Below are positions 1 to 3,000 of a stretch of DNA of 64,000 bases, piece after piece. Made by a program: the position numbers and the translations under genes. Under the pieces are notes generated by a model. It was given only the letters and a program-made list of their open reading frames with translations. It was not told the origin of the DNA and made no database searches. Every line of letters begins with the position of its first letter. Within the stretch, counting starts at the first letter, position 1. This stretch comes from Sphingobacterium hotanense (GTDB lineage Bacteria; Bacteroidota; Bacteroidia; Sphingobacteriales; Sphingobacteriaceae): positions 3,471,618 through 3,535,617 of the forward strand of contig NZ_CP030848.1 in NCBI RefSeq assembly GCF_008274825.1, given 5' to 3'.

Positions 1-1396
1 TTTTGATGTTATCGATACGATATCCAGCCTTATTCTCTGCAGCTTGGGCTGAAATCTCTACAGTTAAGTTTGCAGCACTCGCAATACCGTTGATTGCAAC
101 CTCGCTAAACTGGTTCTGCCCCCCTAAGGTTCCACTCGTTGGATAATCTACTCCATTGATCTTAACCTTCAGTGCAGCAATGTCAGCGTTATTTCCATTA
201 GCAGCTTGCTCATAGGTCATTCTTAACTTCGTATAGCCCGCAGCATTGATATTTTCAATCTTCCTACCCGTCGTTCTGTTGGCCGGAAACCAAACATGTG
301 TATCCATGGTTGATGTTTGGCGAATATCTGCCCAACTGTCGGTGTACAAATCACTATATTTAACCGTTTTATTTTTAAAGTCTGAATAGGTTGCAAATCT
401 ACCACGAGGATTTGATCTAGGCCCTTGTTCACCAAAATCTTCTTCAAAAAAAACTTGTTCAACGCCAACCGGGTCGATCGGTTTGATAGGCTCTTTGTCT
501 TTATCCAAAATAACGCTGCTACCAGGCACAATCACCCAATCCGTAATCGTTGTTTCACCGATCTCAACAGCTTTTGTTATTCCCGCTTCCGTACGTAATT
601 CGATGGTGTGATTGTATTTTTTTCCAGCTTCTAAATTGTAGGTAGTAGGCAATTTCCAAGTGAAGGAATTAGTGCCGATCGTGAATACAACGTCTTTTCC
701 GCCATAAACTTCCGGAATCAAAATCGCTTCAACTGTTGAACCTGTTGTTCCAGCAGTAACTTTTGTCGAAATGTTTGTCGCAGTGGTCGGCGCTGTTAAA
801 TTCCCGCTCGCTAAATCTAGTGAAGTCTGTGATAGTATGTTCTGGTAAGTAACAGCTAAACCATCTAAATTAGTAACACCAGGGCCTGCTTTAACTGTAA
901 TCTCTACTTTCGATAAGCTATGCTTGAAATTCAGCTTTGCAATTTCAGAGTCCTTGCTAAAACCTGTCGCATTATTAGAATAAAGGACGTCGATGGCAGA
1001 CTGATTGCTCTGATCAGCAACATTGATTGCTACGCTTTTATCTCGAAGATCTGCCTTAAAAGGATAGTATGCAACAAAGTCTACAGTACCTTCATTAGGG
1101 TAGTTGATAATATCGTCTCCTGTGGCAGTAAAATTACCATTCCCAGCAGTGCTATATTTTTTATTTCCCGCAATTACATTACTTAAACCTGTACCTTGCT
1201 TCATAAAAACACCGATCGCATCGTCCTTGTCCCAAGAATTTCCGGATACGCGAGTTGTGCTATTTCCTGCTATCGTAGATGTGAATTGTACTCCATTTTC
1301 TGCCGTTTCTTCTAGATCACGGTAGGCATCGTTCTTACACGAGCTTCCTAGCAATAAGGCCAAGAAAGCCACGCTCAATATTTTTTTTGTGTTCAT
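1..1396 (-). CDS. fimbrillin-like surface lipoprotein, truncated by the window edge
   Basis: The reading frame starts at the ATG at 1394-1396 and stays open to base 1, so the C-terminus lies outside the window (about 465 codons visible). The N-terminus is a lipoprotein signal peptide with lipobox LLGSSC, followed by Lys-Asn-Asp. The next part resembles the Mfa1/fimbrillin family: TTRVSGNSWD, then GVFMKQG, and a PFKADLRD-like strand, close in pattern to the N-terminus of the neighbouring 1432-3000 gene. The last 150 or so visible residues (EEDFGEQGPRSNPRG onwards, ending YRIDNIK) read like a jelly-roll beta-sandwich module of the kind used for carbohydrate or surface binding; that is inference. 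It lies 35 bases downstream of the fimbrillin-nuclease gene on the same strand, so the two are probably cotranscribed. It is probably outer-membrane anchored. Confidence 0.75.
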   Translation of the reverse strand, partial: MNTKKILSVAFLALLLGSSCKNDAYRDLEETAENGVQFTSTIAGNSTTRVSGNSWDKDDAIGVFMKQGTGLSNVIAGNKKYSTAGNGNFTATGDDIINYPNEGTVDFVAYYPFKADLRDKSVAINVADQSNQSAIDVLYSNNATGFSKDSEIAKLNFKHSLSKVEITVKAGPGVTNLDGLAVTYQNILSQTSLDLASGNLTAPTTATNISTKVTAGTTGSTVEAILIPEVYGGKDVVFTIGTNSFTWKLPTTYNLEAGKKYNHTIELRTEAGITKAVEIGETTITDWVIVPGSSVILDKDKEPIKPIDPVGVEQVFFEEDFGEQGPRSNPRGRFATYSDFKNKTVKYSDLYTDSWADIRQTSTMDTHVWFPANRTTGRKIENINAAGYTKLRMTYEQAANGNNADIAALKVKINGVDYPTSGTLGGQNQFSEVAINGIASAANLTVEISAQAAENKAGYRIDNIK

Positions 1397-1431: not shown

Positions 1432-3000
1432 TTATCGCCAGATTTGATTGTCTATTGTCCGTTTGACCGAAGGATCCAAGCCTGGAAAAAATGTCAAGCC
1501 TGTTAACTCTTCTAGGTCCGCCACACTTAATCGGTGGCTCATAAAATTATTGTCTGTCGGGAAGTATTTATTATCCATCTTAAAGCCGATGGCGTAGTAA
1601 TTGCTACCTCGTTTGACCGCCAAAGCCTTGTAATAATACTTTGGACGTGCAATTCTGTTCCTCCCCCTATCCATAACATAGTCGATCGTTTGGTCGTCTT
1701 TCGTTTGAATGACAGCGCCTGTAACGACATACATCGTATCAACAGCCGACTGAAAAGTCCAATTGCGTATCTTGTCTTCCAAACGCATCCATAGGCCTTG
1801 ATTCAAGAATGACTCCTGAGCCGTCATATTGGTATAATAAAATGTCGTCGCATTTTCAGCGAAGTTCTTCGTGCGGTCCGCGCTCGGTAATTGGTGGCCG
1901 CGATCAATGCCCGTTATACCAAAACCACTGGAAAGAAATGGTTGTGTATTTTGAGGAAATAGAGGATCGTAGCTCCAAGCATTCGTGCGTCGCTGAGAAC
2001 CTACATAGTCGCGACTCAGCGGATAAGCAACCCAATGAGCTAACCTATTTACCTTATCATATAGCATCGAAAAGTTTCGCTTCGACCCATCAGGTGTCAT
2101 TCGGAACTTATATTCTAGATTTGCATTGGCTTCGATCCTCGGCACTTCTAGATAACTAGTCTTTACCTCAGGAAGTACTTCTCCTCCACGCAACGTGAGC
2201 TCATACTGATAACGATTACCTGCCATAAGTGGAAGGTTCATCTCACCAATATTCCATGTATAAGTACCTCCATTCGCATCATGGATTACCAGTTGTGATG
2301 AGCGAGGTAACTGTCTAGGAAATAGCATCCATTCCACTGTCGTTTCCTGCTTATTATTCTTCGAAACAAATCCCTCTACATCCTTTAGAACGTCATATAG
2401 ATCAAGATCCTTATTTGCTAGGTCATAAGTCGCCCTCGTTGGAACCTGTTTTAGGGTTGCCTTCAAATTTGATCTTGAAGTATTACTTAGCGTAATCTGA
2501 AACTTAACCATCAATCGCTCGAATACCAAGGAAACAGGGTCCTGTTTAGATATGGGACCTGCCTCGCTCTGCCCATGTAAAAAGTCAAGCGCTGATTGAT
2601 TCTGCTGGTTCTCAATATCTAATAAACGTGTCAGCAACGGAACGCGCTGAAAAGGATGGAAAGCTAAAAAACGAACTTCTTTATCTTTGGGAAACTGAAA
2701 TGATTCGTTGACATCGGCAGGGCGCAAATTCCCGCCTCTAGAAGCGATAAACTTTTTATTGAAAGCCTGGGGGAGGATGCTTCCGCTTGTGAACTTATCC
2801 GTTTCATACATATATATACTCAGCGAGTCCTCAGTATCCCATACATTACCAGACACGCGCGTGATGCTCTCTCCCGAGATTTTACTACTGAAAAGAACAG
2901 AAGAATCCTGTTCTATGACGTCGGAAAGGTTCGCCTCCTTTCGACAAGATTGCGTTATAGTTAAAATTAAAAATAAATAAATTAATCCGACTCTTTTCAT
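1432..3000 (-). CDS. fimbrillin-like lipoprotein fused to a DNA/RNA non-specific endonuclease
   Basis: 522 residues. It begins with a lipoprotein signal peptide and lipobox (TITQSC, Cys19). Residues about 30-270 look like a fimbrillin-family N-terminal beta domain (ITRVSGNVWDTEDSLSIYMY, then VRFLAFHPF). Residues about 300-520 are an Endonuclease_NS domain of the Serratia nuclease superfamily: the signature DRGH lies at about 366-369 inside GIDRGHQLPSADRT, and the metal-site Asn in YYTNMTAQ lies near 391, followed by NQGLW. Known members cut DNA and RNA without sequence preference, with Mg2+. All expected catalytic residues are visible, so it should be active. A lipid-anchored nuclease joined to a pilin-like domain suggests degradation of extracellular nucleic acid at the cell surface; that role is inferred. 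A 10-codon frame at 3000-3032 ends in TAATG, sharing one base with this start. Confidence 0.85.
   Translation of the reverse strand: MKRVGLIYLFLILTITQSCRKEANLSDVIEQDSSVLFSSKISGESITRVSGNVWDTEDSLSIYMYETDKFTSGSILPQAFNKKFIASRGGNLRPADVNESFQFPKDKEVRFLAFHPFQRVPLLTRLLDIENQQNQSALDFLHGQSEAGPISKQDPVSLVFERLMVKFQITLSNTSRSNLKATLKQVPTRATYDLANKDLDLYDVLKDVEGFVSKNNKQETTVEWMLFPRQLPRSSQLVIHDANGGTYTWNIGEMNLPLMAGNRYQYELTLRGGEVLPEVKTSYLEVPRIEANANLEYKFRMTPDGSKRNFSMLYDKVNRLAHWVAYPLSRDYVGSQRRTNAWSYDPLFPQNTQPFLSSGFGITGIDRGHQLPSADRTKNFAENATTFYYTNMTAQESFLNQGLWMRLEDKIRNWTFQSAVDTMYVVTGAVIQTKDDQTIDYVMDRGRNRIARPKYYYKALAVKRGSNYYAIGFKMDNKYFPTDNNFMSHRLSVADLEELTGLTFFPGLDPSVKRTIDNQIWR

Follow-up and report, generated by a model that had tools for sequence, protein, structure and literature searches.

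Organization of the locus

The window analysed here (the whole 64,000-nt stretch of the Sphingobacterium hotanense genome) contains one complete gene and part of a second from an operon that continues beyond its left end. The operon comprises six genes, all on the minus strand, which encode in this order a fimbrillin–nuclease fusion, a fimbrillin-like protein with a beta domain, a TonB-receptor-like barrel, a DUF5689 lipoprotein, an EEP-family nuclease and a clostripain, with successive gaps from gene 1 to gene 6 of 35, 78, 12, -1 and -4 bp. The features are listed below in window coordinates or, where prefixed, in those of the surrounding locus (L002) or of the contig in the full genome (G000:C1).

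1432..3000, minus strand: gene 1, fimbrillin-like/DRGH nuclease fusion lipoprotein, whole ORF of 522 aa with ATG start (PF13149 and PF01223; AlphaFold2 model; Foldseek)
2944..3000, minus strand: lipoprotein signal peptide and lipobox ITQS-C19, residues 1-19, followed by R-K-E (Cys19 conservation; LES comparison)
2878..2892, minus strand: predicted first beta strand (A1-like), residues 37-41 (DSSP on the AlphaFold2 model)
2857..2859, minus strand: Arg48, in the low-confidence loop 44-50 between the first two strands (AlphaFold2 model; column conservation)
2173..2862, minus strand: Mfa_like_1 fimbrillin-like domain, residues 47-276 (Pfam; matches to 4k4k and 3ufi by sequence and fold)
1474..2124, minus strand: Endonuclease_NS domain, residues 293-509 (Pfam; matches to Serratia nuclease, NucA, EXOG and EndoG)
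1894..1905, minus strand: DRGH motif, residues 366-369, with the general base His369 (sequence; conservation in fusions)
1801..1803, minus strand: Asn400, metal-ligand Asn in NQGLWMRLED (aligned with Serratia nuclease)
1777..1779, minus strand: Glu408, conserved active-site Glu (aligned with Serratia nuclease)
2..1396, minus strand: gene 2, fimbrillin-like lipoprotein with a C-terminal beta domain, 470 aa, running off the left end of the window; in full at L002:13602-15014 (PF13149, E = 1.5e-52); it starts 35 bp downstream of gene 1
L002:10764-13523, minus strand, outside the window: gene 3, barrel of 919 aa with an N-terminal carboxypeptidase-regulatory domain
L002:9399-10751, minus strand, outside the window: gene 4, DUF5689 lipoprotein
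L002:8356-9399, minus strand, outside the window: gene 5, EEP-family nuclease
L002:7430-8359 (G000:C1:3465429-3466358), minus strand, just outside the window: gene 6, clostripain-family (C11) lipoprotein

The ORFs were called mechanically, and the domain calls in relatives come from profiles built in this analysis. In the gene 1 product, PF13149 (Mfa_like_1) matches residues 47-276 with E = 2e-29, far over its gathering score, and PF01223 (Endonuclease_NS) matches residues 293-509 with E = 5e-45, covering profile positions 4-221 of 223 at 154 bits against a cut-off of 23. No other PF01223 match exists across the 4.49-Mb complete genome, and the protein falls into no NCBIfam family. Serratia nuclease and NucA themselves are secreted as free enzymes and have no display domain fused to them.

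Cys19 of the lipobox is invariant among 17 aligned fusions. From this residue the gene 1 product reads CRKE, a near match, with one acidic residue instead of two, to C-X-K-(D/E)2, the signal for surface export published for Capnocytophaga (PMC5080379). Because of this near match the protein is predicted to reach the cell surface, where it is probably lipid-anchored on the outer face of the outer membrane. No Bacteroidota-type promoter pattern was found upstream of gene 1.

Among the remaining genes, the C-terminal beta domain of the gene 2 product resembles that of the DUF5689 protein. The barrel has neither a SusC-type barrel match nor a plug match in Pfam, only its N-terminal domain matches among PDB sequences, and a search for solved relatives of the barrel, the DUF5689 protein and the EEP nuclease returned none that were useful. 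The C11 gene contains an in-frame stop, after which about 70 residues corresponding to the C terminus of its relatives follow in the same frame. ComEC is encoded in the same genome. We found no account of the fimbrillin–nuclease fusion or of the operon in the open literature; subscription papers and preprints lay mostly outside this search, and an earlier description is possible.

Active site and predicted fold

The DRGH motif, Asn400 and Glu408 of gene 1 align with Serratia nuclease, the catalytic stretch there being NQGxWxRLED. The catalytic His, Asn and Glu occur in all 72 non-redundant fusions, and the full DRGH in 70 of them. The nuclease active site is apparently intact, as a sequence-only reading of this DNA had claimed for the DRGH motif and the metal-binding Asn; the catalytic His, whose loss in relatives that reading had named as evidence against itself, is kept throughout.

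The AlphaFold2 model of gene 1, built from 48 sequences, has a mean pLDDT of 86.7 and supersedes a poor earlier model from 17 sequences (pLDDT 71.2). In Foldseek searches its N-terminal half matches the fimbrillin 4k4k (E = 1.7e-15; TM 0.75 by target) as well as 3ufi, while its C-terminal half matches Serratia nuclease (1qae/1ql0; TM 0.76), Anabaena NucA, EXOG and EndoG. Pfam, the lipobox and the predicted folds thus agree with the proposal, also made in the sequence-only reading, of a fimbrillin-like domain and a Serratia-type nuclease on one lipoprotein: the domain search it had suggested recovered both families, and the fimbrillin fold that it expected before residue 290 is present in the predicted structure.

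Spread of the fusion and its linkage to the barrel

Scanning the named genomes with the fusion as query yielded 76 loci, with full-length fusions in Sphingobacterium, Pedobacter, Mucilaginibacter, Elizabethkingia, Odoribacter, Dysgonomonas, Bacteroides, Phocaeicola, Rikenellaceae and Prevotellaceae. The sequence-only reading had called the arrangement not a standard textbook one; it is indeed unusual in that sense, but it is widespread in Bacteroidota. A gene 3-type barrel lies within 10 kb in about 29 of the 76 loci (in Sphingobacterium, Elizabethkingia, Odoribacter, Dysgonomonas, Phocaeicola, Bacteroides and Prevotellaceae), though genomes usually hold one or two barrel copies. The 72 non-redundant fusions adjoin gene 2 in 56 cases, the barrel in 31 and clostripain in 35, and all 35 fusions beside a clostripain also have gene 2. 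Within Sphingobacterium, the barrel was found only where the fusion was found (7/7 genomes). Where the barrel is missing, the fusion either has gene 2 and clostripain as neighbours (Pedobacter and Mucilaginibacter) or stands by itself (many Sphingobacterium).

As a control from the barrel side, we examined an unbiased sample of 396 Bacteroidota genomes, of which 62 carry the barrel. DUF5689 adjoins nearly all of the 59 barrel loci of this phylum sample and EEP about two thirds, and a DRGH nuclease adjoins only four of the 59. All four belong to a single family (f31, inferred to be Bacteroidaceae from contigs in common with Bacteroides ihuae and Bacteroidales bacterium records), where they make up four of four loci, and the 55 loci examined outside it have no adjoining DRGH nuclease. 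The generality of the core in the phylum sample, together with the restriction of the nuclease to f31, suggests that the core is old and that the nuclease marks one branch. Outside the phylum sample, further nuclease–barrel neighbours occur in other Bacteroidales and in Sphingobacteriaceae.

Several individual loci extend this picture. The whole six-gene operon of Elizabethkingia miricola and E. occulta (L167, L168) falls inside the Sphingobacterium group in trees, which suggests its acquisition by horizontal transfer. In a Rikenellaceae genome, three DRGH nuclease genes in a row are followed by EEP, barrel and DUF5689 (L230:5018-9606).

An exchangeable display domain

The domain that carries the nuclease is not constant. 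In Dysgonomonas (L203), the nuclease beside the same genes bears a BACON domain in place of the fimbrillin-like one, and in a Bacteroidales genome a single 801-aa protein combines BACON, DUF5689 and the DRGH nuclease (L238:8264-10669). Conversely, a 626-aa protein of genome G416 fuses a fimbrillin-like domain to a polysaccharide lyase (L138:5163-11457); the same row holds a gene 2-like protein, a clostripain gene and a further fimbrillin-like protein. Comparisons of this kind suggest that fimbrillin-like domains serve as general enzyme holders at the surface, and the exchange of fimbrillin, BACON and DUF5689 as nuclease display modules argues against a role in a pilus.

Such a role had been proposed in the form of a pilus with a nuclease tip. 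Gene 1 would then encode the tip subunit of a type V pilus: the operon's clostripain would cleave it at Arg48, and strand exchange would link it to the stalk subunits. Arg-specific proteases mature type V pilins (PMC7616799; PMC11316588), which, like the gene 1 product, are made as lipoproteins; the model shows a fimbrillin fold with a strand before the flexible loop that holds Arg48, a possible trypsin-like processing site. Clostripain is Arg-specific (PMC11296011), and its confinement to loci with gene 2 fits this scheme. A pilus is conceivable above all in Sphingobacterium mizutaii, whose operon ends with one more fimbrillin-like gene, for a single-domain protein about 298 aa long and a possible stalk subunit (L039:16812-17687, also L163:19617-20513).

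Even so, we consider this reading very improbable and have given it up as the leading idea. The six genes of the operon include no stalk or anchor subunit, and a search of the window's genome, confined to the Mfa_like_1 family, found no short single-domain protein, the other members there being gene 2 and four ORFs of 565-709 aa. Gene 1 and gene 2 both carry large C-terminal domains in the position of the donor strand of a type V stalk pilin; the C terminus of gene 1 is the nuclease domain and offers no such strand, although a tip subunit would not need one. In addition, BACON replaces fimbrillin as display domain in sister loci, where BACON or DUF5689 carries the nuclease, and the genes that stably accompany gene 1 elsewhere encode an outer-membrane barrel, DUF5689 and a second nuclease. 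The link with proteolysis fares no better. Arg or Lys occupies the Arg48 column in 51 of 56 fusions with gene 2 versus 6 of 16 without it (Fisher p = 3e-5), but the association is not significant once independent pairs on the tree are compared (median p = 0.5). Bacteroidales operons keep the Arg though they have no clostripain, and the clostripain gene of the window's genome is the one with the in-frame stop. We therefore rejected clostripain as the maturation protease of the fimbrillin-like proteins and keep it as a lead only.

Solitary fusions

Some Sphingobacterium lineages have lost gene 2 and the importer and kept gene 1; on the tree they are nested inside operon-bearing lineages. About 15 solitary fusions, with neither gene 2 nor barrel, keep every catalytic residue. 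For the nuclease domain, most solitary pairs have a dN/dS of 0.03-0.06 (a single very close pair is uninformative) and operon pairs have 0.01-0.06, which indicates that the nuclease domain of solitary copies is under strong purifying selection. The fimbrillin-like domain is under weaker constraint in solitary pairs (0.13-0.30) than in most operon pairs (0.07-0.13). The constraint on the nuclease in solitary copies points to nuclease activity as the trait under selection, and its retention without the importer implies that it is useful on its own. In Sphingobacterium multivorum NCTC11343, the solitary fusion contains several stops and is apparently decaying, unlike its relatives (L054:3855-5443, L199).

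The survival of every catalytic residue in solitary genes, their strong purifying selection and their origin inside operon-bearing lineages would all be expected of an autonomous surface nuclease that degrades extracellular DNA, be it for food, biofilm control or the removal of foreign DNA, and for which the adjacency of an importer would be a matter of convenience, not mechanism. We nevertheless consider this fairly unlikely, given that no Sphingobacterium genome of the sample has the barrel but lacks the fusion and that the linkage recurs in several families with swapped display domains, including a DUF5689–nuclease fusion.

Homology to the Riemerella DNA-uptake locus

In a transposon screen of Riemerella anatipestifer, RA0C_RS04915, a carboxypeptidase-regulatory outer-membrane protein, and RA0C_RS04920, a DUF5689 protein, were essential for natural transformation; comEC and recA of this species are RS04895 and RS04870, respectively (PMC8459023). 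In one genome of our collection (G111), recA is followed by four genes, comEC, two further genes, an EEP nuclease, the barrel and DUF5689. Because this order equals that implied by the RA0C tags, we took G111 to be R. anatipestifer. The G111 barrel is similar to gene 3 along its entire length (E = 1.7e-103); the EEP nuclease of G111 matches gene 5 (E = 1.4e-77) and its DUF5689 protein matches gene 4 (E = 2.8e-17). In the reverse search, the G111 barrel picked out gene 3 alone from the window's genome (1.1e-95) and gave weak matches only (about 1e-15) in two members of the genus that have no gene 3; a homologue is present in 145 of 150 genomes of the bacterial family of G111. By these comparisons genes 3 and 4 are homologues of RA0C_RS04915 and RA0C_RS04920, and gene 5 is homologous to the neighbouring RS04910.

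This homology brings in a further explanation, in which the operon is a transformation uptake machine and the DRGH nuclease, like EndA and NucM, makes the ends for import. Besides the relation of genes 3 and 4 to the essential Riemerella pair, it can draw on the presence of ComEC in the window's genome and on the precedent of DRGH nucleases that act in the competence of pneumococcus and Moraxella (PMC6384898). Several observations make it decidedly unlikely. The core stands without a neighbouring DRGH nuclease in every phylum-sample locus outside f31, E. miricola and E. occulta hold a Riemerella-type barrel as well as the six-gene operon, and a free-acting surface nuclease would destroy transforming DNA too. 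Moreover, in a quick tree of the barrels, made without bootstrap and with some rows on long branches, 30 rows, 29 of them nuclease-linked, form one group (SH-aLRT 93) that includes an inner group of 26 (support 100) and lies apart from the Weeksellaceae (Riemerella-type) group; the 30th row, the Bacteroides ihuae barrel, was later found to adjoin a nuclease too. As the nuclease-linked barrels branch apart from the Riemerella ones, their function is not simply transferable, and the direct carry-over of natural transformation from Riemerella is weakened by this tree and by the two barrels in Elizabethkingia.

A candidate nucleic-acid import complex

Considering the operon as a whole, we think it reasonably likely that the gene 1 product does the cutting at the cell surface for an outer-membrane complex that imports nucleic acids. 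The fimbrillin-like domain would hold the nuclease off the cell surface, next to its partners, and the DRGH nuclease would cut extracellular DNA, possibly also RNA, using a divalent metal. The DUF5689 protein and the gene 2 product would hold the cut pieces, the barrel would import them and the EEP nuclease would trim them. Two predictions of the sequence-only reading accord with this scheme: surface display of the gene 1 product is probable, and extracellular nucleic acid is its likely substrate. Against it count the occurrence of the fusion without the barrel, which means that it can work without this importer, the separate branch of the nuclease-linked barrels, the near match only to the export signal, and the lack of an adjoining DRGH nuclease at most barrel–DUF5689 pairs of the phylum sample.

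For such an import complex, the scavenging of phosphate, nitrogen and nucleosides appears to be the most likely purpose. We favour scavenging over transformation because the operon has two built-in nucleases, because the nuclease is kept after loss of the importer and because Elizabethkingia has both barrels. A secreted inosine-uridine nucleoside hydrolase adjoining the nuclease–EEP–barrel locus of a Prevotella (L219:358-1407) points the same way, as a single case. A contribution of the operon to natural transformation is possible. A broader and on balance doubtful proposal is that these loci form a second TonB-receptor-like DNA-uptake machine in Bacteroidales and Sphingobacteriaceae, whose dedicated entry nuclease sits at the surface on a display domain that can be swapped (fimbrillin, BACON or DUF5689). 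Such a machine would supply the missing nuclease step of pilus-independent DNA import in this phylum and serve both nutrition and transformation.

How DNA passes the outer membrane of Bacteroidota is poorly known, and the components proposed in the Riemerella work were a barrel and a DUF5689 protein, with no nuclease among them. The locus described here ties a putative surface nuclease to that machinery in gut, oral and soil species. If the proposed function is correct, it would explain how such bacteria feed on, or take up, extracellular DNA, and the fimbrillin-like domains here would be enzyme holders, not pilus parts.

Comparison with known systems

The operon has features in common with several known systems and differs from each in others. 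With the Riemerella pair it has in common a barrel with an N-terminal carboxypeptidase-regulatory domain, a DUF5689 gene directly after it and an adjacent EEP gene, the barrel and the EEP nuclease being homologous to genes 3 and 5 over their full length. The Riemerella locus, however, has neither DRGH nuclease nor fimbrillin-like genes alongside, and the barrel of the present operon sits on a separate, nuclease-linked branch. Like type V pilins and Mfa_like_1 fimbrillins (4k4k, 3ufi; Porphyromonas FimA and Mfa1), gene 1 has the fimbrillin fold, a lipoprotein precursor and a basic residue past the first strand, but a C-terminal nuclease takes the place of the donor strand, and stalk and anchor genes are absent from the operon. 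Sus-like glycan uptake loci likewise encode surface lipoproteins and hydrolases together with an outer-membrane barrel; here, by contrast, the operon has no SusD, the barrel has no SusC-type match in Pfam and the enzymes are nucleases. Finally, gene 1 shares its nuclease fold, the DRGH motif and the active-site Asn and Glu with Serratia nuclease, NucA, EndA of Streptococcus pneumoniae and NucM of Moraxella; unlike in Serratia nuclease and NucA, a lipid-anchored fimbrillin-like domain precedes the nuclease. With its DRGH motif and lipobox, the gene 1 product may be a candidate for an envelope-held nuclease of the kind that EndA and NucM provide in competence.
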